The translations under genes and the position numbers were made by a program. DNA of 58,721 nt from a virus: IMG/VR virus record IMGVR_UViG_3300017986_000023, positions 1 through 58,721 of that record; one strand, written 5' to 3'. The notes under the pieces were generated by a model. That model ran no database searches. It was not told the origin of the DNA and saw nothing but the letters and a program-made list of their open reading frames with translations. Positions 1,103 to 21,287 of this stretch are shown here, in pieces. Numbering within the stretch: the first letter of the stretch is position 1; each line of letters begins with the position of its first letter.

Positions 1103-1131
1103 ATTGTACACGTTTAAATCGGTTTTGTCAA
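1103..1131 (-). promoter_or_regulatory. sigma70-type promoter
   Basis: On the minus strand TTGACA (1126..1131) and TACAAT (1103..1108) are 17 bases apart, a near-consensus promoter. It overlaps the last codons of the kinase gene and fires towards 1054, leaving a leader of about 45 bases. Confidence 0.75.
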
Positions 1132-1817
1132 GTTCTTCTTGCTTTTGCCTTTTCGTCTTCGATCCACTTCTTCGCCTTGGCATTCTCCACAGGCTTTTGA
1201 GTGAACTTAGTTGCGTCACGATAAGCGCGTAGCGTTTCTTTCTCGTAGTTTTTACCCTTTGAGTTGTCTACTACAAGAAAGTTTGGCTTACCGAACATAC
1301 GTTGAAACTTGCCCACATTGCGTTGGACAGCTTTCCAGTACTCTTCTACTTCTTTGTCTGGCAGTGACCGCTCGCGTTGACGATTCCGCTCAAGTGCTGT
1401 GTCCATATCAGTGTTGACAAAGATCATCGCCGTGTCATAGCCAAGTGCTTTGAGTTTCTGTGCTTGTGTAGCGATCTTGTCTGGATCTTTACCAGTGCCG
1501 TCAATTACAAGACCAAGACGACCTTTGATGTAACCAGCCTGTCTTGTTGATGTAAGACGCTTTGCTTTACCGCGCAGTTCTTGACCCTTGACAGAAAAGA
1601 TATTGTCAGGACTCATCTCCATGCCAGCTTTCTTCATAGCCGCTTCAAATGCATCGTCAGAGTTTACAACTCTGTATCCCATAGAAGTCAGACCAGTCTT
1701 GCCTACGATAAATGACTTACCAGAGCCAGGACCACCCGCGAGAAAGATAGCTTTGAAGATTGCGGGATCGTTGACGCCTTCGTCGAGTTGTTGAATGAAA
1801 TTAGAAAACTTGAGCAT
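1128..1817 (-). CDS. P-loop kinase of the zeta-toxin/polynucleotide-kinase type
   Basis: 229 residues. A Walker A loop GGPGSGKS lies at residues 28-35, followed by VNSDDAFE (about 51-58) as in zeta-toxin and polynucleotide-kinase-like folds, VIDGTGKD (about 103-110), and a lid-like region with NRQRERSLP. It should phosphorylate a small molecule or nucleic acid end; the substrate cannot be read from sequence. The N-terminus MLKFSNFIQQLDEG is separate from the kinase fold. It resembles the capsid-targeting leader of T4 internal proteins and has an L-x-E site. The C-terminus is Lys-rich. It lies downstream of the second carbamoyltransferase gene. Confidence 0.8.
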   Translation of the reverse strand: MLKFSNFIQQLDEGVNDPAIFKAIFLAGGPGSGKSFIVGKTGLTSMGYRVVNSDDAFEAAMKKAGMEMSPDNIFSVKGQELRGKAKRLTSTRQAGYIKGRLGLVIDGTGKDPDKIATQAQKLKALGYDTAMIFVNTDMDTALERNRQRERSLPDKEVEEYWKAVQRNVGKFQRMFGKPNFLVVDNSKGKNYEKETLRAYRDATKFTQKPVENAKAKKWIEDEKAKARRT

Positions 1818-10802: not shown

Positions 10803-11096
10803 TTATTGACACTCCAAATCAGGCGGTACCTGAATCCAACAATTCAGAAGTTCTGTCCAACGCTCTCGATCTTTTTCGCGTTGTTTGTAATACTCCATCA
10901 TTTTATCTTGCGCAAATGGTGGTAGTTCTCTGTATTCGTTCCACTCATCTGCGTTCATGAACTGCACTTTTGGATACGAGCCAGACACACTGACAGTATA
11001 CAGTACAGTCTCGTTTGGCATTTCGTCTCTGATTATACTCGGAGACCAGCCAACTGCACATCCTGACAATAACAGAACGGGCAGTATTCGAATCAT
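10803..11096 (-). CDS. Small lipoprotein
   Basis: 97 residues with lipobox LLLSGC (Cys13). The mature part is mixed and ends with CWIQVPPDLECQ, which has two cysteines that could form a disulfide in the periplasm. It follows the 57-residue gene by an ATGA overlap and abuts the spanin-like gene. It may belong to the lysis group, but function is unknown. Confidence 0.7.
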   Translation of the reverse strand: MIRILPVLLLSGCAVGWSPSIIRDEMPNETVLYTVSVSGSYPKVQFMNADEWNEYRELPPFAQDKMMEYYKQREKDRERWTELLNCWIQVPPDLECQ

Positions 11097-11266
11097 TTTG
11101 ATTGCTTTTTAAACTTACCTGCGATCTCTACATAATGACGAGTCAATGGTCGACGCTTCTTTTTCTTGCCGTGCATCCAGTCTGCTGGATCTCCTGGCGA
11201 AGTGCCTGCGATTTTAGGACCAGTGGTCATTGTGGGCTCTTCGTTGAATTGTTTGAACGTCTTCAC
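11093..11266 (-). CDS. Small basic protein with capsid-targeting-like leader
   Basis: 57 residues, GTG start overlapping the upstream TGA (GTGA) and stop overlapping the next ATG (ATGA). It begins MKTFKQFNEEP, very like the T4 internal-protein leader MKTYQEFIAEA. It contains HGKKKKRRP and ends with a basic GKFKKQSK. Such a small, very basic protein is what would be expected of a head-packaged, DNA-associated protein. A TATAAATA box lies 41 bases upstream inside the previous gene. Function is inferred only. Confidence 0.75.
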   Translation of the reverse strand: MKTFKQFNEEPTMTTGPKIAGTSPGDPADWMHGKKKKRRPLTRHYVEIAGKFKKQSK

Positions 11267-11844
11267 TTGTATAGTTCTCCGACTGTCACATATAGAGGCT
11301 GATTAGTATTTATATGAATCGCTTCGTAGACATGCAAGCCAAGCATGTCACCAACAGGATATGCCTCGGGCAAAACACGAACGGTGTCTTTTGCGTTAAC
11401 GTCGAGGTCTTGTGAAGTTACTCGATCTTCGCGTAATCGATACACTCCGGGTGACAGTTGCCCGTCATCTAACACGTACCATGTAGAAGACTCAGCCATT
11501 AAGTCTAGCGGATCTATTTTACACTGTTTTAGAATTTTGTCAATACTTTTATCTGACAACTGATACTTTTCTCTCAAAAGAAAAAGAGCCGCGGCGTATG
11601 ATGCGACAGTATTTCTGCCGCCAGGAATTTTTTCTAGTAATCTTTTGATATTAAACACAAGACGAATGAACGTAGAATATGCGGTCTTCTTTTCGTCGTT
11701 GTCTAACTTGACGGACTTATCGCGCTTGCCGTTCTCATCAATGATGCCTAGTTTGTAGGCGTCTGTCTCTGACCATGGAGTGGTCAGCAGTTTTACAAAT
11801 CGAAACGAATAATAAATATCGCCTGCTCGTGTTGCTAGTGACAC
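11263..11844 (-). CDS. Conserved T4-like phage protein, 193 residues
   Basis: Begins MSLATRAGDIYYSFRFVKLL followed by TPW..TDAYKLGIID, a pattern I recall from a conserved but uncharacterised protein of T4-like cyanophages. Mixed alpha/beta, no signal peptide or membrane helix. It touches the preceding gene by one base. Probably a structural or assembly protein given its place between head-associated and lysis genes; not established. Confidence 0.75.
   Translation of the reverse strand: MSLATRAGDIYYSFRFVKLLTTPWSETDAYKLGIIDENGKRDKSVKLDNDEKKTAYSTFIRLVFNIKRLLEKIPGGRNTVASYAAALFLLREKYQLSDKSIDKILKQCKIDPLDLMAESSTWYVLDDGQLSPGVYRLREDRVTSQDLDVNAKDTVRVLPEAYPVGDMLGLHVYEAIHINTNQPLYVTVGELYK
11307..11314 (-). 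promoter_or_regulatory. T4-type late promoter box
   Basis: TATAAATA on the minus strand inside the 193-residue gene, 41 bases upstream of the GTG start of the 57-residue leader-bearing protein. Exact match to the T4 late consensus read by gp55-type sigma factors. Confidence 0.5.
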
Positions 11845-12215
11845 TATATTTTCCTCAGTTCTTCAATGACATGATTGTCCATTGGTATGCCAGTATATTT
11901 ATCATTTGTTATGGCGTTCAAATAAATCAAAAACGGCTTGACTACAACTAAATCGTCTGTGCTAGTCAATTTAAATTCAAGCATTTTCAGACCAGCTTCA
12001 ACACCGAACACATTAAAAATGACCACAAGATGATTCATGATCAAGTTTACAGCCAACTTGCCGCCATCTTGATATCTTTTGATCAGACGTTTCAGATACT
12101 TGAATCTCTTAAGGTCTTCGTAGAGTTCTTCTGCGTCGATGCATCTAGGATTATAATAGTTTTTTGCCGCAAATAGAAGAAAGTTGTCTTCATTGATCTC
12201 ATTAAATAGTTGCAT
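11844..12215 (-). CDS. Conserved phage protein, 123 residues
   Basis: Helical protein beginning MQLFNEINEDNFLLFAAKNYYNP. The pattern RFKYLKRLIKRYQ..G.L...LIMNHLVVIFNVFG is one I associate with a conserved small protein of T4-like marine phages, always next to the 193-residue protein. No catalytic motif. It is the first gene after the terminator at 12261..12284. Confidence 0.75.
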   Translation of the reverse strand: MQLFNEINEDNFLLFAAKNYYNPRCIDAEELYEDLKRFKYLKRLIKRYQDGGKLAVNLIMNHLVVIFNVFGVEAGLKMLEFKLTSTDDLVVVKPFLIYLNAITNDKYTGIPMDNHVIEELRKI

Positions 12216-12260
12216 TTTTACCTTGTAAATTCGTAGTGAGAGTCTGTTTTATCTATGTAT

Positions 12261-12284
12261 AAAAAAGCCCGCGAAAATGCGGGC
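12261..12284 (-). terminator. Rho-independent terminator
   Basis: Minus-strand hairpin GCCCGC-ATTTTC-GCGGGC followed by six T. It ends the unit containing 12310..12642. The other strand also reads a hairpin followed by TTCTTTT, so it may work both ways. Confidence 0.8.
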
Positions 12285-12309
12285 TTCTTTTAGTTAATGA
12301 AAGTTACGA

Positions 12310-12642
12310 TCATTTCTTAGCAGAGTACGCTTGACCCCCAAAGAATGCCGCTACGATAGCCGCAACAGATACGAAGTATGTAGCCGCCATATCACCTAGA
12401 ATTTTAGACGCTTGATCAAGACCAATCCAGTCTGCGAGGACTACTGCAAACGGATAAAGCAGTAGACCAAACAGAGCGAACCATGTCATGCTTCGTTGCG
12501 CATCTCGCATTGCGTCAGCATCTTCTAGTTCCTTTCGCTTAAACTCCATATACATTGCATGTTCTTCTTCAGAAACATGTCCGTCGCCGTTTGTGTCTGC
12601 GGGGTGATAGCCTGATTTCTTTTCTTCTTTTTCTTCGGCCAT
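12310..12642 (-). CDS. EF-hand protein with two membrane helices
   Basis: 110 residues. A full EF-hand loop DTNGDGHVSEEE is at 16-27, then a charged helix, then two hydrophobic helices (about 51-68 and 84-103). A calcium-binding N-domain on a hairpin membrane anchor is unusual; I recall similar proteins in T4-like cyanophages. The two-helix membrane part could suit a holin, but that is speculation. It is the last gene before the terminator. Confidence 0.75.
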   Translation of the reverse strand: MAEEKEEKKSGYHPADTNGDGHVSEEEHAMYMEFKRKELEDADAMRDAQRSMTWFALFGLLLYPFAVVLADWIGLDQASKILGDMAATYFVSVAAIVAAFFGGQAYSAKK

Positions 12643-12647
12643 TTAAA

Positions 12648-12917
12648 TCACTCCTCTACAGTTTCAGTATCGTCGTCTCCATAATGAAATTCTTCAGTAG
12701 CTTCGTCAATGACGGTTTCAACAACAGGCGCTTCATGCAACGTCTGCTTCTTTGGCTTAGGAGCTGGCTTAGATGCCATTGCTTGCTCACCGTGCCACTC
12801 AGCGATTTGATCAGCAGTAAATTTCTGCTTCTTTACAACCTCACCGCTAGGAGCCATCCAGCCCTTCGCAGTTGGTTCAGTGCCCTTGGGAGCCCAAGGT
12901 GGGGTTTTGATAGCCAT
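12648..12917 (-). CDS. Small Pro/Lys-rich probable structural protein
   Basis: 89 residues: MAIKTPPWAPKGTEPTAKGW, then a basic Pro-rich linker (SKPAPKPKKQ) and an acidic end (EEFHYGDDDTETVEE). Low complexity and largely disordered. The beginning 'P.W.....PT.KGW' recurs, as far as I recall, in virion-associated proteins of marine T4-like phages. It abuts its neighbours with almost no gap. Confidence 0.65.
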   Translation of the reverse strand: MAIKTPPWAPKGTEPTAKGWMAPSGEVVKKQKFTADQIAEWHGEQAMASKPAPKPKKQTLHEAPVVETVIDEATEEFHYGDDDTETVEE

Positions 12918-13622
12918 TTAGCCCTCCTTACCAGTAGTAGTTGTTACTGCACCCTTGACAGGATTAACAATCTTTGTGTCGCCCATGCGCTTTTCGCCAG
13001 GACGTGCAGGTGCTTGACCCTTTACAGCACGACCAGCTTTAGTCGCATCTTCGTGACCTTGCGCATCATCTTTTTCAAGATTAGGATTATCTGCATCATG
13101 GTCTTTTGCCATATCGTCAGCCGCTTTGCCCTTGCGCTTGTCTTTCATAGTCTCAGCTTTAGCACCAGACTGATTGGGTTGCTTCGACTCTTTCATTTTT
13201 TTCTTAGCAGTGTGCTTGTGAGACTCAGACACAAGAATGTCAAGGTCTTCGACAGGAACGTCAAACTCGACGCCATGCTCAAACATCACGTCATAGTGAG
13301 TGACAGTAGCAGTGCCGTCTTCGTTTTCAACGAGCGTATGTTGTCCAGAGATACACTCTCCGAAACCCCATTGCTCTGAAGTTACGTGCTTGGCGCAATC
13401 GTGACTGAGTGCTTTATCGACTTCTTTCGTGTCCATGTCAGCAGACTCATCTTTCATGGCCTTTTTAATAGCCTTTCGGCGCTTGTGCAAATACTCGTCC
13501 GAAGAATCAACATCACCATCGTTGTCGATGTCAGCATCAGCTTTACCGACAGGATCCATCTTTTTCTTTTCTGTTACTTCGGCCCACAGTTCTGCCATTT
13601 TTCTGATATACGAGGGATTCAT
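12918..13622 (-). CDS. Calcium-loop protein, probably head-associated
   Basis: 234 residues. A dockerin/EF-type loop DADIDNDGDVDSSD (about 29-42) is followed by a basic helix (LHKRRKAIKKAM), a small domain with two cysteines and several His (about 75-130), and a long charged, disordered tail rich in Lys, Asp, Gly and Ala. The N-terminus includes MAELWAEVTE. It lies among genes with capsid-targeting-like leaders, and its composition suits a core or internal head protein. No enzyme motif. Confidence 0.7.
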   Translation of the reverse strand: MNPSYIRKMAELWAEVTEKKKMDPVGKADADIDNDGDVDSSDEYLHKRRKAIKKAMKDESADMDTKEVDKALSHDCAKHVTSEQWGFGECISGQHTLVENEDGTATVTHYDVMFEHGVEFDVPVEDLDILVSESHKHTAKKKMKESKQPNQSGAKAETMKDKRKGKAADDMAKDHDADNPNLEKDDAQGHEDATKAGRAVKGQAPARPGEKRMGDTKIVNPVKGAVTTTTGKEG

Positions 13623-13634
13623 TGCTTTCTCCGT

Positions 13635-13979
13635 TTAAGTGGGTAGACCTATTTGTGTGGCAATCGCAGTAATAAAGACTGCAATAACTAGCCAGCTTAC
13701 TTTCATACCCAAGTTGACTTTCTCAACTAAGGATGAAATATCTTTTGACATATCGTCGGTTTTCAACGATATTCTATTTATTCTTTCGTGTTGCTCTTCA
13801 CGGCGCTCTTCTAGCACATTGATCTTTTCTTCAACCTTCGCAATCATGACAACTGCCTCGGTGAGTTTCTCCATGTGCCTTTCAATAGCCGCCATTCGCG
13901 CTTCATGATCCGCAGTATCAATGATGTGCTTATCAATTTTGTTATCGAGTCCTTCGATAAGCTCCTTTGTAGTAGCCAT
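13635..13979 (-). CDS. Coiled-coil protein with C-terminal membrane anchor
   Basis: 114 residues: a long heptad-bearing helix (about 5-90) with many Glu/Lys and one C-terminal hydrophobic helix (about 92-108, VSWLVIAVFITAIATQIG). It may be tail-anchored. It resembles the protein at 26966..27511 in architecture (membrane helix plus coiled coil) but with the order reversed. Function unknown; envelope attachment or lysis control are possible. Confidence 0.7.
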   Translation of the reverse strand: MATTKELIEGLDNKIDKHIIDTADHEARMAAIERHMEKLTEAVVMIAKVEEKINVLEERREEQHERINRISLKTDDMSKDISSLVEKVNLGMKVSWLVIAVFITAIATQIGLPT

Positions 13980-14020
13980 TTTAGTTCAGTGCTCCCATTC
14001 GATTTATTACCGCAGTAGAC

Positions 14021-14368
14021 TTAATTGTCTACCTTTGCTCCCCCACGCCATTGATAGCAAGACCAGTATCTTGCTTTCCATTTTGGACCAGGATTATCGC
14101 AGTTATGCCTAGCCCTAAAACTTTTTCTTCGCCCGGGATCGTCACGCTTAATCTCCATTTTAGGATCACCGAAGTTAACTTTCACTACATTACCTTTTTC
14201 GTTTTTAACGTAGACAGAGAACTTTCTAGGACCACCAGGCGTACGAAATGGATCGTTCAGCTTCACTTTCTTGCCTTGGTACTCAGCGGCTTCCTGCACG
14301 AGGTCTTCGTACATTGACTCACAAGTACAATCGATTTCGTCTGCTCGATGATCTTTAAACTTCTTCAT
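14021..14368 (-). CDS. Conserved protein of the internal-protein cluster (DUF6321-like)
   Basis: 115 residues from ATG 14368, chosen because GGGGACGA precedes it; an ATG at 14380 is also possible. It starts MKKFKDHRADEIDCTCESM, a leader-like segment, followed by LVQEAAEYQGKKVKL with an L-x-E site. The rest (RTPGGPRKFSVYVKN; DPGRRKSFRARHNCDNPGPK; RYWSCYQWRGG) is a basic domain I recall as DUF6321 in cyanophage proteins (number unchecked). Four cysteines could bind a metal. Confidence 0.75.
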   Translation of the reverse strand: MKKFKDHRADEIDCTCESMYEDLVQEAAEYQGKKVKLNDPFRTPGGPRKFSVYVKNEKGNVVKVNFGDPKMEIKRDDPGRRKSFRARHNCDNPGPKWKARYWSCYQWRGGAKVDN

Positions 14369-14600
14369 CTTCGTCCCCATTCGACTTTAGATAGTCAGTT
14401 GCGCTATCAAGGTAGTCGTTCGCTTTCGTAATTTTGTTTTGAACCCATTCTGGAAGATTGTCATCGTCGCCCAACATCTTCATCAAGTCTTGCGCATTTC
14501 GCACGATAGTCTTGAGTTGAGTCTTCGCCATTTCCCCTTCTTGATCATACTCATTGGGGTCTTTATCTTCTTTCAGCCTTAGGTTCTTAAACGTTTTCAT
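14355..14600 (-). CDS. Acidic helical protein with capsid-targeting-like leader
   Basis: 81 residues. It begins MKTFKNLRLKEDKD, close to the T4 leader MKTYQEFIAEA and with an L-K-E site. The remainder is an acidic helical hairpin (LPEWVQNKITKANDYLDSATDYL) known to me as a recurrent module in marine T4-like phages. The start overlaps the stop of the 581-residue gene by four bases. It could be a core/scaffold or packaged protein. Confidence 0.75.
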   Translation of the reverse strand: MKTFKNLRLKEDKDPNEYDQEGEMAKTQLKTIVRNAQDLMKMLGDDDNLPEWVQNKITKANDYLDSATDYLKSNGDEDEEV

Positions 14601-16342
14601 TTCGATTCCATATACTCGCTTGCTTTCAACTTGACGCCTTTAGCGGCGAGTTCACGTGCCGCAATCTGAGACACGAATCTAACCTTTGCACGAGCGACTT
14701 TTTCAAGTGCGGCTTTGTCCATACGTGCAATCATAGCCTTCAGCTTTTTGTAAGTAGGCGATGTCACGTTGATCTTTTCAAGATCAGCGTATGCCTTCTT
14801 GAGTTGTTGCAACTGGGCATCAGAGAATTCAGCTAGTTCGGTCGACTCTTTGACCTTTGACATACCGCCACGATCATTTCTGACCCAGCCCTTAGCTCTC
14901 AGTCGCTTCTCTCTTTCAGCTTTTTCACGTTCTGCTTCTTTCTTTCTGAACGCGGCTTTAAACATGGTGTTATGTGCTTTGTTGACTTCATCAACTTTGT
15001 CGGGCAGACCTTTGTGCTTGGTCTTCGCAAAATCTTTTACGTCTTTCTTTGACATAGACTTAGCGGCTTTTGCTACTTCAGGAGATGCATCGTCCATCTC
15101 GCCCTTCTGCTTTGCTCGCACCATGCCAAAAAACTTCTGCTGTGCTTTTGATACAGCCTTTTCTTCAAGACCTTCGCGCACTAAACGGTTGTTCTTAACC
15201 ATTCCGTTCTTTTTGAATATAGTAATTACACCGTCACGAGGGTCTGTATCCATTTTGTCAATAAAGTGTTTCATTTGAATGAACGTCTTGTCTTGCTTGT
15301 TTACGTCAGACTCTCTACCAAGTTGACGAACAAACGCACCGACCTTCATAAAGTCTTTCTTGTCGATACCACCATGTTTTCTTGCGTACTGTTCAAATTC
15401 TTTTGCGACCTTGAAGAAATCAATTGCTTCATCTAAATCTTCTTTAACACTCACTTCTTTCTTTGAAAGCTTAGTCAGAACATTAGCAATTTGCGGTGGT
15501 CTCATACCTACAGACATTAATGCTTGATTAATATCACCCCATTGATACATTTCTTTGTCGCCGCGTCTACTGTATTTGCCCGGCGCTTCGTTGATGCCTA
15601 CTTCTTTCTTTGAAAGCTTAGTCAGAACATTAGCAATTTGTGCTGTCCTTATACCTACAGCCATTAATGCTTGATTAATATCACCCCATTGATATAGCTC
15701 TTTGTCTCCGCGGCGCGAATACTTACCTGGTGCTTCATTAACTTCTACTTCTTCTTTCTTAAGACCACCCATCATGTTACCGTAGACTTTACGATTCATT
15801 CTTTGTGATCGAGTTTCGTCACCATGATCGCGCTTGCGTCTGTCTTCGCGTTCTTTCTTACGGCGAATGTCACCTAATGGATCATAACGCTTTTTGCCAT
15901 CTCTTTCTCTACGCTCTTCGCGTTCTTTCTTACGGCGAATGTCAGCCAATGACATCGCTTCGTCAACCGACTCCTTTTGCATGTCTTTCATGCGTTGCAT
16001 CGATACGGGTTGACCTTTCTTAGAGATAATACCGTTAAAGCCTTGCTTTCTCATACTATCAAGAAACTTCTTAGCATCATTTGCAGAATCGAATGAGCGA
16101 ACACTGATAGGTCCGCGCTTGGACTTAGCATACTTAACATCGAACTTTTCGTTCGTGCTTTCTTTAGGCACACAGTTAGGCACCATCTTGTCGCCTTTCT
16201 TCTTCATGCCCACTTGTTTGTGAGTATCCCAGCAAGGGTCTTTTTCATTCAAAGGCTTTTCGCCTTTCTTTTTCTTCGCAATAGCGATAGCGGCTTGCTG
16301 TGCAGGCGATACTGCTTCTCTTAGGTCTTTTAATGATTTCAC
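14597..16342 (-). CDS. Large charged multi-repeat protein, candidate internal head or core protein
   Basis: 581 residues, begins MKSLKDLREAV. It has no enzyme motif and is unusually rich in Lys, Arg and Glu. Two kinds of tandem repeat are visible: a 24-residue unit with DIRRKKERE.RR.RD (twice, about 138-185) and a 49-residue unit VEVNEAPGKYSRRGDKE...LSKKE (twice, about 199-296). Each 49-residue unit starts with [VI]NEAP, and many [LVI]xE sites occur elsewhere (LNEK, VDEA, LDEA, LVRE). T4 prohead protease gp21 cuts after [LI]xE, so this could be a precursor cut in the head. Inference only. Confidence 0.75.
   Translation of the reverse strand: MKSLKDLREAVSPAQQAAIAIAKKKKGEKPLNEKDPCWDTHKQVGMKKKGDKMVPNCVPKESTNEKFDVKYAKSKRGPISVRSFDSANDAKKFLDSMRKQGFNGIISKKGQPVSMQRMKDMQKESVDEAMSLADIRRKKEREERRERDGKKRYDPLGDIRRKKEREDRRKRDHGDETRSQRMNRKVYGNMMGGLKKEEVEVNEAPGKYSRRGDKELYQWGDINQALMAVGIRTAQIANVLTKLSKKEVGINEAPGKYSRRGDKEMYQWGDINQALMSVGMRPPQIANVLTKLSKKEVSVKEDLDEAIDFFKVAKEFEQYARKHGGIDKKDFMKVGAFVRQLGRESDVNKQDKTFIQMKHFIDKMDTDPRDGVITIFKKNGMVKNNRLVREGLEEKAVSKAQQKFFGMVRAKQKGEMDDASPEVAKAAKSMSKKDVKDFAKTKHKGLPDKVDEVNKAHNTMFKAAFRKKEAEREKAEREKRLRAKGWVRNDRGGMSKVKESTELAEFSDAQLQQLKKAYADLEKINVTSPTYKKLKAMIARMDKAALEKVARAKVRFVSQIAARELAAKGVKLKASEYMESK
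15453..15746 (-). repeat. 147-bp in-frame tandem repeat
   Basis: Two adjacent copies (15453..15599 and 15600..15746) with a period of exactly 147 bases, or 49 codons, inside the 581-residue gene. Most differences between copies are silent or conservative, and a long stretch beginning ACTTCTTTCTTTGAAAGC is identical in both. It points to a fairly recent duplication of one protein module. Confidence 0.85.
15843..15943 (-). repeat. 72-bp spaced in-frame repeat
   Basis: The run TCTTCGCGTTCTTTCTTACG (plus strand) and the following CGAATGTCA occur at 15843 and again at 15915, a 72-base (24-codon) period. It encodes the repeated IRRKKERE.RR.RD segment. Confidence 0.75.
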
Positions 16343-16797
16343 GCTAAGTCCTTATCGTGGTTTAATCCACCCTTTTTCTTTTTAACAATAAAAGCGTTGA
16401 CTCTAGCGTGTCCCCATTGCTGAGGAGTAGTACCAGGTCGATGACCTGTACGCCATGCCGCAACACCTCGGTCGTAAACTTTTTTGAGAACAGAACGTGA
16501 GATGCCCGACTTCTTTGCTTTGTCAGTCAGTGCGTCTTCGTTGATCACATGATTTTTAAATTTCATTTGTTCTCCGTACATCTTTTTTATAGCTTTCGTA
16601 TACTTCGAAGGCTTTGTTTTTGCGTCCGCATCGCCAGGCGCTGGCTTATAAGCCGCTGGGTTATCATCGTCCATCTTCGCACCCTTTTTGAAGTGACGAT
16701 CCCTCGCAACCTTTGTCGCCTTAGACAGACCCTTATGATAGTGCTTGGGCTGTGTACCTTTACGATCTTTAATGTCTTTGTCTTGAGGCGTTTTCAT
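16339..16797 (-). CDS. Basic protein with DUF5824-like C-terminal domain
   Basis: 152 residues. The first half is Lys-rich and disordered (KHYHKGLSKATK; PGDADAKTKPSKY). Then an internal MKFKNHVINEDAL looks like a second start with a leader, followed by a domain with SRSVLKKVYDRGVAAWRTGH and GTTPQQWGHARVNAF. I recall that pattern as DUF5824 of cyanophages (number unchecked). It may be a fusion of two formerly separate proteins. Its start lies 3 bases after the nucleotidyltransferase stop and its stop overlaps the next gene by four bases. Confidence 0.75.
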   Translation of the reverse strand: MKTPQDKDIKDRKGTQPKHYHKGLSKATKVARDRHFKKGAKMDDDNPAAYKPAPGDADAKTKPSKYTKAIKKMYGEQMKFKNHVINEDALTDKAKKSGISRSVLKKVYDRGVAAWRTGHRPGTTPQQWGHARVNAFIVKKKKGGLNHDKDLA

Positions 16798-16800
16798 TAT

Positions 16801-18186
16801 TTATACAACTCGGGTTGTTTGGCGATTTTTGCGTCGAGCCCTAGCAAGTCGCGCACGATCAAGCACCTTATCGTACTCACGCTCTTTGCGATCTCGCTCT
16901 CGGCGATCTTGTTGTCGATCTTGTCTTTTGTCGAATGAGATACGTTGCTTTGCCGCATCTACTTCGTCGCCGCGTATTTCTTTTACGTCAGCTTTTTCTT
17001 GACCAGCGATATTCTTCTTTGCTTTCTTAGTAGCGGCGGGTGTTCCCCATTCGGGCTGATCTTTGTACCAGTTGTCTGTCTTACCCTCAGCGAACGTTGG
17101 CTGATAGTTGACTAGGTGCTTAGGCATGATGCCCTTCTTGACCATCTGACGAAACATTTTGTCAAGTGTACGAACGTCAGTATCCGTCATCTTAGCGGTC
17201 TTGATAAGATTGTTTCTAGCATCGCCTGGATTCTTTTTGCGTAGGTCTAGAAACGTACGTATCGCAAACTTGTACTTCTTTTTGTTGATTGTGCGATCAA
17301 GAAAGGCATCAACTTGAGGCATGAGATCCCGCATGAGACCACTTCCGCCCCAACCTGCTTCATCGATTAGTTCAACGTCCGTAATCCATCTGCGAGAGAA
17401 ACTGCCATCAGCCATATCGAGAATAAGATAATTGGTACCAAGGCGTGAGACACGACCCATTTCACCAGTTTCTTTGACCATAACTTGATCGCCTTCATTA
17501 AACAATACTCCTTCAATAAATTTTTCTCGCATGTCAGATACGGGCTCAAGTTCAACGTGATTCTTGAACTGAGTCATTTCTTTTAAGCCCATACCAGAGC
17601 GTACATCATTAAACAGTTTTTTCGCATCACGGCTACTCATTGTAGATGGCACACCTTGTGCGAACGTTGTGAAATCATTATTCTTAGCATTTTCACGTTG
17701 CTTTGATGCAGACATGCCTGTCACGTCATCGGCATCTGGATCTCGCTCACCAGCAGAGACTACAGTGATGCGCTCAAAGTTATAGAAACCATGTCGCGCT
17801 TTCTCACCGTTGTACTTTTCTAGAAGCGTTTTGAATTCGGTAATACGATCAGCACCGACAACCATGGTAATGCGATTAAAGCCTTGATCGTAGAGACTAG
17901 TCGCGACTTCGAATACGTTTCGAAGTTTCTTATCCATGATTACGTTACGTGCCTGTTTTGGGAACATCTTACGAACGTGCTTAATTTTCTGTTCGTAAGT
18001 GAGAGGATTCTTTTTGGCATCACTTGACTGTGACAAGTAAACTTTATAGGGATTCTTGCCTGCCTTTGTAGCCATGACCTTTAACAGTTTGCCATGTCCG
18101 ATTGTCGGCGGATTCATCCTACCGAATGTGAAAAATACCTCGCGTTGCTCTTCAACGAGATAATCTTTAAAAGACGGAAAACTCAT
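16801..18186 (-). CDS. Cytidylyltransferase-fold protein with leader and C-terminal basic tail
   Basis: 461 residues. After a leader MSFPSFKDYLVEEQ comes a HxGH-type nucleotidylyltransferase domain: FTFGRMNPPTIGHGKLL (about 20-36, the HxGH motif in TxGH form) and GMSASKQRE (about 157-165), equivalent to the ISSTxxR loop. It should transfer AMP or CMP from NTP to a phosphate or nucleotide; NMN adenylyltransferase-like activity is possible. A second module starts at MTQFKNHVELE (about 205) with an SH3-like KETGEMGRVSRLG. The tail (about 415-461) is extremely Arg/Lys-rich. It could be packaged with DNA. Confidence 0.82.
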   Translation of the reverse strand: MSFPSFKDYLVEEQREVFFTFGRMNPPTIGHGKLLKVMATKAGKNPYKVYLSQSSDAKKNPLTYEQKIKHVRKMFPKQARNVIMDKKLRNVFEVATSLYDQGFNRITMVVGADRITEFKTLLEKYNGEKARHGFYNFERITVVSAGERDPDADDVTGMSASKQRENAKNNDFTTFAQGVPSTMSSRDAKKLFNDVRSGMGLKEMTQFKNHVELEPVSDMREKFIEGVLFNEGDQVMVKETGEMGRVSRLGTNYLILDMADGSFSRRWITDVELIDEAGWGGSGLMRDLMPQVDAFLDRTINKKKYKFAIRTFLDLRKKNPGDARNNLIKTAKMTDTDVRTLDKMFRQMVKKGIMPKHLVNYQPTFAEGKTDNWYKDQPEWGTPAATKKAKKNIAGQEKADVKEIRGDEVDAAKQRISFDKRQDRQQDRRERDRKEREYDKVLDRARLARARRKNRQTTRVV

Positions 18187-18623
18187 TTCTTATCTGAACC
18201 ACCCATTCTACGTTCTTTTTCCATTTTACGAATTTGAGGCAACATCTTGCGAGCAATCTTATCGACTCTCGGCTTCATCTTTTCGATGCGCTTTTCAATT
18301 TCTTGGCGACGACCAGCAGGTAAATCAGATCGAGTCTGACCCTTTGCTAGTTTCTTGAACAGGGTGTTGATTGCGGCTTTGCGGGCGCGTTTCATAAGAC
18401 GTTTAGGATCTGCCGCTTTTCTAGCCGCTCTCCTTCTGCCCATGGCAATCTTTGCTTTATTCTTCTTCATCGCTCTGGCACGTGCGCGGCGCTGTTGAAA
18501 GTTCAACGCTTCGTCTACGTCTTCGCCAATACGTCCTCTCTTACGCTTCATAGCGGCGTATGAGATTTCTTCTGGCATGCCAGGCGTGTAGTCAACTGTT
18601 AGAAAATCTTTAAAACTTAACAT
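18183..18623 (-). CDS. Very basic DNA-binding-like protein with leader
   Basis: 146 residues. It begins MLSFKDFLTVDYTPG and then becomes strongly basic (QQRRARARAMKKNKAKIAMG, KRLMKRARKAA, RRQEIEKRIEKMKPR). It contains DVDEALNF, an acidic linker with a V-D-E site. No enzyme motif. Composition and leader resemble packaged internal proteins of T4 (IP family). The start overlaps the next upstream gene region by two bases and the stop overlaps the cytidylyltransferase start by four. Confidence 0.78.
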   Translation of the reverse strand: MLSFKDFLTVDYTPGMPEEISYAAMKRKRGRIGEDVDEALNFQQRRARARAMKKNKAKIAMGRRRAARKAADPKRLMKRARKAAINTLFKKLAKGQTRSDLPAGRRQEIEKRIEKMKPRVDKIARKMLPQIRKMEKERRMGGSDKK

Positions 18624-18624
18624 A

Positions 18625-19845
18625 CTAGTTTCTCGTTGGTTTGTCCCATCCCTTTAATATATCGGGTGAAAAGTTGTTATAGCTAAACTCTAGCCTATCA
18701 ACCAATTTCACTGCGTCACCACCAAGTGTGTCAATTGCTACATAACCTTCTTGACCAGTAGTCTTGAACCCGTTGCGAGTTTTCACAAAAGTTTCAAGAC
18801 TACTGAGTCTGTTTAACTTATTTATAAGTTTTAGTTTGACAACTACAATTAATTTTTGTAGTTCAAACATCTTAACTAAGTTTGCTTTGTTTTTGTTGCT
18901 GAAGAACTTGAGGAGGTCGTCGCGCTTCGCTTTTTGCGTGGCTTTGCCGCGCGGGGTTTTGCGGCTGTCGATTTCTTTTTGGTACTTGTTTTTGATCCAG
19001 CGGATGAGCTTTTCCGTGTGGGCGCGGGTGTCTTTGATTTGACTTCCGGCTCGGACGTAGGTGTTGTTGAACTGCTCGATGTGCTGGGCGAGGGACTGGT
19101 TGGCTTCGAGGGCTCTGAGGGTTGTGCCCGAGATCCCGTTAAACAATTTACCAATTTGCGAAAGATATTCATTTATTTGCTCCGTTTCTCGTTTAGTCAG
19201 AGTCGCATTGCGAACGTCACGTAGCATTGCATCCTGTGACCATACTTTAGTGGATGGATTCAATTTACTTACATCAACTCCGTACGATGCTCGCATCGTT
19301 TCGAAGCTATTGCCTGTATATGTAGTATGCCATACAATCCCGATTTTAGCGTTCAGAACAGCAGAAGCCATTTTAACGGGAATAGCATATACAAGAGTAT
19401 TAGGGTGAAACGTAACATAGGATTCTCCATCGATTGTTTCTCGTTGAACATCACCTTGCCCAAAGAGAAAGTCTCCTTGGATCACGCCTTCAATCCCTAA
19501 TGCGGGTAAATACCGTAGTGCATCCTTTAGTTTAGTTGCAAGGTCGCCTGAAGTGTCTGCATCAACATCAGCCTCAGTCTTGTAGACCTTCGGATTTTTA
19601 TTGAAGATTCCTTTCTTCGCTACAAAGAATTTACCATCACGTGGATCAGTGCCAGCAAAGATAGCTGGCGCGCCGTCCCACTTCATGGACACTCGACCCT
19701 CTTTCTTACCGCCAAGCATGTTCCGAAGATCACGCAGAGCGAAGATTGCTTGCCGAGTCCCATCGACACCACCGTACAGCACCTTATCCTCAATGTGAGT
19801 CATGTGAGTGTTTTTCTGCTCAGTAATAAATTCTAGAAAGTTCAT
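18625..19845 (-). CDS. Nucleotidyltransferase/ligase-like protein (DUF6267-like)
   Basis: 406 residues. After the leader MNFLEFITEQ comes MKWDGAPAIFAG with K55-x-D-G, the signature of motif I in covalent nucleotidyltransferases (ATP-dependent DNA/RNA ligases), then FFVAKKGIFNKNP and VIQGDFLFGQG, which could be motifs III-like. It may form an enzyme-AMP intermediate and act in RNA or DNA repair; I recall the family as DUF6267 in cyanophages (unchecked). Residues about 235-320 are encoded by a GC-rich patch (see findings). The start touches the fibre gene stop by one base. Confidence 0.72.
   Translation of the reverse strand: MNFLEFITEQKNTHMTHIEDKVLYGGVDGTRQAIFALRDLRNMLGGKKEGRVSMKWDGAPAIFAGTDPRDGKFFVAKKGIFNKNPKVYKTEADVDADTSGDLATKLKDALRYLPALGIEGVIQGDFLFGQGDVQRETIDGESYVTFHPNTLVYAIPVKMASAVLNAKIGIVWHTTYTGNSFETMRASYGVDVSKLNPSTKVWSQDAMLRDVRNATLTKRETEQINEYLSQIGKLFNGISGTTLRALEANQSLAQHIEQFNNTYVRAGSQIKDTRAHTEKLIRWIKNKYQKEIDSRKTPRGKATQKAKRDDLLKFFSNKNKANLVKMFELQKLIVVVKLKLINKLNRLSSLETFVKTRNGFKTTGQEGYVAIDTLGGDAVKLVDRLEFSYNNFSPDILKGWDKPTRN
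18819..18826 (-). promoter_or_regulatory. Intragenic TATAAATA box
   Basis: Exact late-promoter octamer on the minus strand inside the C-terminal part of the ligase-like gene, within the near-palindrome AACTTATTTATAAGTT. About 195 bases upstream of the start at 18623, so it could serve the basic-protein genes downstream. It may equally be chance. Confidence 0.3.
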
Positions 19846-21287
19846 TATAGTGCCGCCTGAGTAACGTCTATCTTAACCGATGGCGATGACGGTGCGAATG
19901 CTGTTGCAGGTACCGCCTGTAAAGTGACCGTTGCGTCTGTACTTGCCCACATATGTCTTATCGTGTCGTTTGCGTCCAGAGAAACTGTGTTTGTCGAAGC
20001 AAATGTTGTGAAAACAGCATTTCCCACAATAGTGACAAGACGTGTTGTACCAGTCAAATCGGAGTCGTTTTTACGTAGCCAAAAGTAAACATTTTTAGAT
20101 GAACTGTTAGTTGAAGTTACCTGTGCATTTACCGTAACTGCATAGAGACCAGATTGAAATACTTGAATTTTTGATCTATCACTGTCTAGATACTGCATCT
20201 GTTGCGCACGTAAATCTGTTGACAATCTTATAGGTTGGGCTGTGTTAGCCAACAGCATATTTTGATCAGAGTCACTAACAAAGTTGCCATAGTTCTTTTG
20301 TTGTTCATAGTTAGGGCGAACAAAGATTTCGCCTTGCGACGAGTCAACACGAAGAACAGACCCCATTGGATTTACATTGTCAGGTGCTGTTGGCTTGACA
20401 TTTGTTAAACCGCCCGACACTGTTGGGCTTACATACAGAATATCACCGACATTAAATGCAGAGGTGTTTACATCACGGACTTTACCCCATACTGTTATTC
20501 GACCATCAGCACTGTCAGCGATATCTTCTGTAGCAATGCCTAATCCATAAAAACTAGGAAACTCGTTGTTGGCTTGAAAAGGTTCGACAAGTAATCGTGC
20601 AGTGCCGTTTTGTTCTGCGCCTGCAAATCGAACAGCAGTGCCGTTTAGAATCGTCGAGCCAGTTTTATTGCGAACATATGCATACGACTCTTGACCAATT
20701 TGCTGAGTCACACCGTTGGGATGTTGCAGATTCAAAGTCTGATCTTGTTCACTCCAGCTCAATTGCCCCACTTCAGGGAATTCTTCTTGTGTGTGATTGC
20801 GATCAAACTTAAGTGTGTTGACAGGACCAGGATCAGTTGTGAACTGAACTGTCTGAGTGTTCGCATCGTATTCAAGCAACCAGTTATTGTTGTTGCCTGT
20901 CATTGTGTTACGATTCACATCATCAAGATAACGAAACTCTTTTTCACCACCACCGCCAAGCGAAGTCAGTTGCTTCTGCACTCGCTCAACAAAAGTCTTG
21001 TAATGACTATTCAAGTCTTCTTGTGTGACATAGTTACTGCGAAGATCGACCTTGTTTAGATAATCTTCTTGCTCTTTGATTGGCTTCTGGACAGGAGCGA
21101 CAGGCGACTCAGGTAACATTTCAGGAATAAACGATCTATCACCTTTCAGTGCAGAAAGATAATCGTTCATACCAGCTGGCGTGTCATCGACAATTTTTTC
21201 TTCAACGATAGGTGCTGTGCCGCTTTTCTTTTTCTCTTCGGCAATCGCTTTGAAAAAATCTGTTAGTGTTGTCTTTTCATCTGACAT
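19845..21287 (-). CDS. Virion structural protein, fibre or decoration type
   Basis: 480 residues. It begins MSDEKTTLTDFFKAIAEEKKK, a charged N-terminus I know from several structural proteins of marine T4-like phages. The middle (about 195-325) is beta-rich, with ILNGTAVRFAG, GLGIATEDIADSADG, VWGKVRDVN and ILYVSP, typical of phage coat or fibre decoration domains. The C-terminus (about 355-480, IQVFQSGLYAVTVNAQV) resembles the jelly-roll heads of C1q-like fibre tips. Probably a trimeric head or tail fibre. It follows a 22-base gap and precedes the ligase-like gene. Confidence 0.75.
   Translation of the reverse strand: MSDEKTTLTDFFKAIAEEKKKSGTAPIVEEKIVDDTPAGMNDYLSALKGDRSFIPEMLPESPVAPVQKPIKEQEDYLNKVDLRSNYVTQEDLNSHYKTFVERVQKQLTSLGGGGEKEFRYLDDVNRNTMTGNNNNWLLEYDANTQTVQFTTDPGPVNTLKFDRNHTQEEFPEVGQLSWSEQDQTLNLQHPNGVTQQIGQESYAYVRNKTGSTILNGTAVRFAGAEQNGTARLLVEPFQANNEFPSFYGLGIATEDIADSADGRITVWGKVRDVNTSAFNVGDILYVSPTVSGGLTNVKPTAPDNVNPMGSVLRVDSSQGEIFVRPNYEQQKNYGNFVSDSDQNMLLANTAQPIRLSTDLRAQQMQYLDSDRSKIQVFQSGLYAVTVNAQVTSTNSSSKNVYFWLRKNDSDLTGTTRLVTIVGNAVFTTFASTNTVSLDANDTIRHMWASTDATVTLQAVPATAFAPSSPSVKIDVTQAAL

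Follow-up and report, generated by a model that had tools for sequence, protein, structure and literature searches.

The window analysed here is a 58,721-nucleotide stretch of viral DNA (IMG/VR record IMGVR_UViG_3300017986_000023, positions 1 to 58,721). This 58.7-kb fragment comes from a T4-like virus and has NrdA/NrdB, gp41-, gp43-, gp44/62- and UvsX-like genes; its nearest annotated relative is Phage C48C1 (Kyanoviridae). Between positions 11,093 and 19,845 lies a cluster of genes whose products begin with short leaders resembling the capsid-targeting sequence of T4. We consider it very probable that the leader is a head-targeting tag that brings a set of enzymes into the head of the phage, the T4-type capsid-targeting sequence serving here as a general cargo tag. 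An earlier note on this DNA, made from the letters alone, had listed eight such N-termini under the low (3') ends of their genes. All eight are present, and all are on the minus strand, with starts at 11266, 14600, 14368, 16342, 18623, 18186, 19845 and 1817; the starts at 11266 and 16342 are GTG codons, and 14368 is an internal ATG within a slightly longer open reading frame (ORF).

All of the window features listed in this paragraph are on the minus strand. The DUF6267 gene (18625..19845; 406 aa; Pfam PF19782, E=1.2e-105) starts with the capsid-targeting-like leader MNFLEFITE/Q (19819..19845), where the slash marks the predicted cut. A small, very basic protein (18183..18623) has the leader MLSFKDFLTVD (18591-18623), which keeps the hydrophobic pair and lacks the glutamate at the cut (P1); its C48C1 orthologue begins MLSFKQFVSE. 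The nucleotidylyltransferase (NTase) gene (16801..18186; CTP_transf_like/NMNAT-like, PF01467, PHROG 395) continues into a downstream SH3-like module, and its leader MSFPSFKDYLVE/E (18151..18186) was delimited from the strict motif and the leaders of orthologues. A DUF5824 module (Pfam PF19141, E=3.5e-27) is fused to a second basic module in the gene at 16339..16797, inside which a leader-like MKFKNHVINE occurs (16537-16566); this second basic module is a stand-alone gene in C48C1, with the leader MITFKKYLEE. The gene at 14597..16342 encodes a multi-module basic protein, a candidate polyprotein with [LIV]xE/A at the starts of its duplicated modules. Its leader MKSLKDLRE/A (16316-16342) was placed by orthologue leaders, and it contains a DUF3008 module (14993..15157) that is 72% identical to ORF93 of cyanophage S-SCSM1. 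Three further genes have partial leaders: a small protein (14355..14600; MKTFKNLRLKE/D, 14568-14600, a weak case read from the sequence), an EYQG-module protein (14021..14368; MKKFKDHRADE, 14336-14368) with 70% identity to a C48C1 protein beginning MKKFKQYIDE, and a 57-aa basic protein (11093..11266; MKTFKQFNEE, 11237-11266) whose syntenic C48C1 counterpart reads MKTFQEFMKQFEEE. Also in the cluster is a protein without a clear leader (12918..13622), one module of which recurs in the S-SCSM1 virion protein ORF92. Outside the cluster, a P-loop kinase gene (1128..1817; Zeta_toxin/AAA_33, PF06414, E=7.9e-12) has the leader MLKFSNFIQQLDE/G (1779..1817), with the predicted bond at a conservation boundary.

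In the T4 internal protein IPIII, residues 4 and 7 govern targeting and residues 8 and 10 govern processing, and the protease gp21 cuts after L/I-x-E (PMC9026906). We scored leaders with a strict pattern, phi-x-x-phi-[LIVMF]-x-E, where phi is a hydrophobic residue. The residues equivalent to IPIII 4 and 7 are hydrophobic or aromatic in seven of the eight window leaders, the 14021 gene having His at the second. The full strict pattern is found in the leaders of the 16801 gene (MSFPSFKDYLVEE) and the 18625 gene (MNFLEFITEQ), and in the kinase leader with three extra residues ahead of LDE. The leader of the 14597 gene has a compressed register ending in LRE/A, and in those of the 18183 (FLTVD), 14021 (FKDHRADE), 14355 (FKNLRLKE) and 11093 (FKQFNEE) genes the hydrophobic pair is partial or there is no clean [LI]xE. 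Counted within the window alone, 2 of the 12 cluster ORFs have the strict motif, compared with 1 of the 74 remaining minus-strand ORFs, a borderline enrichment (Fisher p=0.05). A relaxed, extended version of the motif performed like chance (p=0.13) and was dropped in favour of the strict and profile tests. Taken by itself, the window is suggestive at best of packaging. Orthologues of the partial leaders are often perfect, as in MLSFKQFVSE, MKKFKQYIDE and MITFKKYLEE of C48C1 and MKNFKQFIEA of the environmental locus L203.

To compare the N-termini across related phages, as the earlier note had proposed, we scanned IMG/VR with the DUF6267 protein. The scan gave at least 600 rows, which places these phages among the commonest in the sea, and the best 80 of the at least 600 loci were used for neighbourhood and leader counts; two extra scans with distant DUF6267 homologues added 160 loci. 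In the 80 loci the DUF6267 leader keeps phi-x-x-phi-[IL]-x-E or a close variant, the second phi being weaker in a few, while its other letters vary freely (MNFLEFITEQ, MLRFTNFITEQ, MISFKQTITEQ, MKTFSNFLSEQ, MDFKEFLSEQ). A homology-based alignment of 59 DUF6267 homologues (45-81% identity to the window protein) has an invariant Glu9, the P1 residue, and Phe3 in at least 90% of sequences. Among 160 distinct leader DNAs, selected by a regular expression that required P1 and P3 and thus informative for the two phi positions and codon use only, the first phi is F in 149 and the second is F or Y in 134. P1 is written GAA in 123 of them and GAG in 37, so selection acts on the residues.

The kinase gives an even sharper picture. 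Among 80 loci it has 31 distinct N-termini, all with Glu directly ahead of G-V/I-N/D-D-P. Past the predicted bond the entropy is close to 0, before it 0.7-3.4 bits, and the distance from the first phi to the bond ranges from 6 to 10 residues. A gp21-type [LI]xE site adjoins the targeting element with an invariant Glu in both the 59 DUF6267 homologues and all 31 kinase variants. Across the 80 DUF6267 loci, the strict leader is found downstream of DUF6267 in 124 of 424 genes (29%), upstream of it in 44 of 373 (11.8%), several of which are extra cargo, and on the opposite strand in 3 of 172 ORFs (1.7%). The bodies behind the downstream leaders include NTases, Zeta-toxin-type kinases, a HAD-like phosphatase, basic proteins and other unrelated families; several tagged families with E-x-K motifs resemble, on our reading, restriction-type nucleases and are putatively assigned as such. 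Four near-complete relatives carry 2 to 7 tagged genes each, and in one of them (G002) six of seven lie within 13 kb. The claim that many unrelated proteins start alike is therefore upheld in the relatives, where the motif lies far above chance, and all of the N-termini exist; it holds less well for the window, with five of eight leaders partial and the borderline p=0.05 given above.

Two further observations concern tagged genes. A family of 433-460 aa upstream of DUF6267 (L023, L038, L070) is tagged and nuclease-like and appears homologous to the untagged S-SCSM1 virion protein ORF90, with which it shares FHRGS, NKW[ST]PADI and GVSLK. A C48C1 UvsW-type helicase (OQ984149 19419-20918) begins MKDYSHFMVEA, a strict match on a protein unexpected in a head.

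The kinase and nucleotidylyltransferase bodies proposed by the earlier note are borne out, both scoring above the Pfam cut-offs. The window NTase reaches 26.2 bits against a cut-off of 21 (PF01467, E=1e-5), matches PHROG 395 with E=7.6e-67 and is 40% identical to S-SCSM1 ORF91. The kinase scores 45.5 against 22.3 bits (PF06414), with GGPGSGKS in every variant listed. A phmmer search of both proteins against the PDB returned no matches, though Pfam assigns both. The annotated start of the C48C1 NTase (OQ984149 63514-64857) is probably wrong: starting from the in-frame GTG near 63448 would add MIKNFSQYLLEEEREVYFTFGR.

For DUF6267, which the earlier note called ligase-like, an alignment of close homologues gave a model too poor for fold search, and a deeper alignment was used. 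The resulting AlphaFold2 model has a mean predicted local distance difference test score (pLDDT) of 86.8 and a predicted template modelling score (pTM) of 0.82; pLDDT falls below 50 only at residues 1-14, 373-375 and 403-406. In this model the leader is a short N-terminal extension outside the folded domain, residues 1-14 being predicted as unstructured. K55, D57, G58, E366, G367 and K380 are invariant in the 59 sequences (KxDG, EGYVA and a downstream Lys), and we read the order KxDG, EG-hydrophobic, Lys as motifs I, IV and V of the covalent nucleotidyltransferase/ligase superfamily. Foldseek gave as its best match a DNA ligase (6wbo; probability 0.54, E=0.11), with further ligases among the weak matches and no significant ligase fold match in its results, and hhalign against T4 Rnl2 was negative. 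DUF6267 is best described as a putative divergent nucleic-acid-ligase-like nucleotidyltransferase, the word ligase being founded on motifs only.

The predicted cut site recurs in two other settings. The first is the capsid protein itself, whose maturation sites, located by alignment, read FLTE/T (C48C1, G002), FMTE/A (G005), MLNE/T (G003), LLSE/A (G001), LLTE/A (S-CREM2) and FLAE/A (S-SCSM1) in relatives. The leader sites in those same genomes read FITE, FLDE, YLVE, YLEE, FVSE and FLTE, so that the leader cut site is, judged from these letters, of the [LIM]xE type shared with the capsid proteins of the relatives. C48C1 and the near-complete relatives G001, G002, G003 and G005 have a T4-type scaffold and capsid protein, and a prohead protease gene is present in C48C1 and G007.

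The second setting is the boundary between modules. All 29 distinct contexts of the EYQG module have [LIVM]xE ahead of it, against a background of 0.8%; the module may follow a leader (MKTFKQYITE/AEYQG) or a spacer, or lie within a 1274-aa fusion. In the window, the 14021 gene has VQE/A (14291-14299) ahead of its EYQG module, and the 14597 gene has VNE/A (15734-15742) and INE/A (15587-15595) exactly at the duplicated module starts and LEE/K (15161-15169) ahead of the DUF3008 module. The window's NTase, DUF5824, DUF3008 and EYQG modules are found in one relative as individual genes, each with a tag, and other relatives have them fused. In L223 (826-4650) and L224 (667-4767) a single ORF of 1274-1366 aa, which starts without a leader, joins NTase, basic, DUF5824, second basic and EYQG modules that the window encodes separately. 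This arrangement suggests polyprotein cargo that would be cut within the prohead.

Virion proteomics of related phages bears on packaging. A cytidylyltransferase/NMNAT homologue was detected by mass spectrometry (MS) in purified virions of S-SM1, S-SCSM1 and S-CREM2 (PMC3037559, PMC9602691, PMC10665884). We tested S-CREM2 with its genome and its virion MS data (Table 3 of that study). The leader is found on most of the detected non-structural enzymes: the virion proteins include a SAM lyase (MKDFDSFLEE), a kinase (MKRFDAFLTE), an NTase (MKNFSSFLTE), ORF13 (MKDLHSFLTE) and ORF136 (MQTFSMFFSE), and the virions also contain a Pol-beta-type NTase. Of the 26 non-structural virion proteins, 5 have the strict motif, against 4 of the 167 undetected proteins (p=0.003). 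A leader profile trained solely on environmental DUF6267 and NTase leaders, with the S-CREM2 N-termini left out of the fit, placed five MS-detected proteins at the top of the 219 S-CREM2 proteins, and the same profile ranked T4 ipIII, ipII and ipI 2 to 4 among the 47 T4 genes tested. In S-SCSM1, seven of the nine genes ORF89-ORF97, a syntenic block ahead of primase/nrdA, are flagged as virion proteins; they include the NMNAT (MKSFLQFLKEA) and the free-standing DUF3008 protein ORF93, the homologue of the 14597 module. The window 12918 gene matches the flagged virion protein ORF92 (66% identity over 38 aa). Profile ranking puts the S-SCSM1 NMNAT first and the protease third, and as a second replicate of the profile test this genome gives partial support. 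The E. coli phage phAPEC6 was considered as a model and rejected, since its NTase (MKETCVLTFGR) has no leader and is absent from the 62-protein virion list; with its gp21-type protease present, it was kept as a negative control.

Several virion proteins of these cyanophages have further sequence peculiarities. S-SCSM1 ORF97 (MK867354 93121-93306) and S-CREM2 ORF160 (OR473000 128342-129235) carry a near copy of the mature N-arm of the capsid protein (GGFTGSSAAEGPTAGYDPLM compared with GFTGAAAPGGPNAGFDPVM in the S-CREM2 capsid protein), as if imitating the arm. S-SCSM1 ORF93 (MK867354 91626-91835) ends in KKKRTFKEFLEYIE, which resembles a leader, so the tag may also have a C-terminal form. S-CREM2 ORF12 (OR473000 7704-10313), annotated as Cas9, has no Pfam match and contains a leader-like LRFASFMAEAA from residue 17 (a CTG codon), which points to a wrongly placed start or an internal tag.

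Based on these results, packaging of the tagged proteins appears well supported by homologues, and the steps around it can be proposed in outline. Two hydrophobic residues three apart (usually F-x-x-F/Y) would dock the cargo on the core of the prohead while the shell is still open; a gp21-type prohead protease would then cleave after the adjoining [LIV]-x-E and release the cargo within the head, from which it would leave with the DNA at infection. One tag would thus serve an exchangeable set of NTase, DUF6267, P-loop kinase and basic proteins of nucleic-acid-binding type, some of the cargo being encoded as polyproteins in which that cut site separates the modules. We infer docking, cleavage, injection and the roles of the enzymes in the host; repair of NAD or RNA and the blocking of restriction at entry would fit the cargo, and T4 IPI and IPIII are a precedent for injected anti-defence proteins (PMC9391042). 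For the broader proposal, namely that one interchangeable address-plus-cut tag loads any protein, including polyproteins chopped in the prohead, and that a ready-made enzyme kit of NAD or nucleic-acid repair enzymes, nucleases, kinases and SAM lyase goes into the cell together with the DNA and acts before phage expression, we see about even chances.

A number of results weigh against a head-targeting tag. In the window, the complete targeting-plus-cleavage motif is found in three of the eight listed leaders, the other five being partial, and the cut site is displaced or missing in the leaders of the 18183, 14021 and 11093 genes; the 18183 type represents a subclade, FKDF[LI]xVDY (FKDFLTVDY in the window), that is conserved yet without the P1 Glu. 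The genes for gp21, gp22 and gp23 of the window phage fall outside the fragment, and the virion evidence comes from cyanophage homologues. The strict regular expression was drafted after the S-CREM2 N-termini were known, 4 of the 9 strict-motif S-CREM2 proteins were undetected in virions, the top five of the profile include the capsid protein (HLTEK, with LTE alone and no phi pair) and ORF15 (no cut site), and a rank test across all non-structural virion proteins gives only p=0.03. In S-SCSM1, the virion proteins ORF90 and ORF92 have no leader, and the top ranks also hold a clamp-loader gene with a misplaced start and an undetected protein beginning MKTFKQFMSE. Finally, the 1274-aa NTase polyprotein of L223 begins leaderless although its phage has the protease.

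Some of these points would also be expected if the leaders target the head and the proteins, rather than being an injected payload, belong to its internal structure or core and remain with the capsid, or remain uncleaved. Several cluster proteins are indeed small, very basic and without an assigned fold, one leader subfamily has lost the P1 Glu, and small virion proteins of the block copy the N-arm of the capsid protein. Against this, the NTase, kinase, SAM lyase and DUF6267 keep catalytic motifs that a structural role would not maintain, and outside that one subfamily no leader positions are better conserved than the P1 Glu and P3; we regard this alternative as improbable. Less probable still is a reading of the leaders as plain amphipathic N-termini, or as addresses for another site such as the tail or the replication complex, with the MS matches explained by co-purification of abundant late proteins. 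The S-SCSM1 and S-CREM2 authors themselves raise co-purification, which they could not tell from packaging (PMC9602691, PMC10665884), and the strict motif does occur in some non-virion S-CREM2 proteins, the 4 of 167 above. Nevertheless, what the leaders conserve corresponds to the residues for targeting and processing in T4 and to the cut site in the capsid proteins of the relatives, the detections in virions of S-SM1, S-SCSM1 and S-CREM2 were made independently, and the replication enzymes of those phages are leaderless and mostly undetected in virions. That the leaders go back to one N-terminal cassette, spread by duplication or recombination and now without function, might be read from the adjoining tagged genes and from modules that are shuffled, fused and split among relatives, but is hardly credible given that the leaders differ everywhere save at functional positions, that those positions use alternative codons (GAA/GAG, TTT/TTC), and that the cut site persists while leader length varies. 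The payload packaged in the head, as the earlier note had envisaged it, gains support from MS-detected homologues of the NTase and of two other cluster modules, from the IPIII positions and from the capsid cut site.

The closest known system is the T4 capsid-targeting sequence of IPI, IPII, IPIII and Alt (Mullaney and Black 1996; PMC9026906), likewise a short N-terminal propeptide with hydrophobic residues at 4 and 7, an [LI]xE site and free neighbouring positions. In the marine leaders precisely the IPIII targeting and processing positions are conserved, and the two elements can lie apart. Whereas T4 packages three small basic proteins and one ADP-ribosyltransferase, the marine cargo consists mainly of enzymes and multi-module proteins across a very large phage group, its targeting element and cut site are separable by 1-4 residues, and sites also lie between fused cargo modules. 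The virion NMNAT/cytidylyltransferase, kinases and SAM hydrolase of S-SM1, S-SCSM1 and S-CREM2 are homologous proteins from the same syntenic block before primase/nrdA; the cyanophage papers report that they are present, describe no packaging signal and do not settle contamination (PMC3037559, PMC9602691, PMC10665884), and the leader offers a mechanism. Head proteins of SPN3US and phiKZ (PMC5694885, PMC7411985) are similarly ejected internal proteins processed by a gp21-family protease, but their propeptides mostly exceed 100 residues and have another motif. DarB of phage P1 (PMC9024508) has an N-terminal signal sufficient to package a reporter; unlike the marine leaders, the Dar proteins have no common consensus and no T4-type scaffold. 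Capsid-targeting sequences are known from T4 and its T-even relatives (PMC9026906), and a full-text search of openly licensed papers found no report of one for cyanophages or for related marine phages.

Cyanophage virion studies repeatedly find enzymes whose packaging route, or the fact of packaging, is unexplained. A readable tag would make the cargo predictable from sequence in every genome, including proteins without an assigned function, and proteomics data already collected could be mined again for N-termini at the predicted cuts. The leaders also suggest natural, exchangeable delivery tags for loading chosen proteins into phage heads.

Next to the cluster, at 19845-21287 of the window, is a tail-fibre-like protein with the N-terminus MSDEKTTLTDFFKAIAEEKKK; it contains MNDYLSALKG, which resembles the C-terminal MNNYLDALRKTSKK of the C48C1 scaffold.

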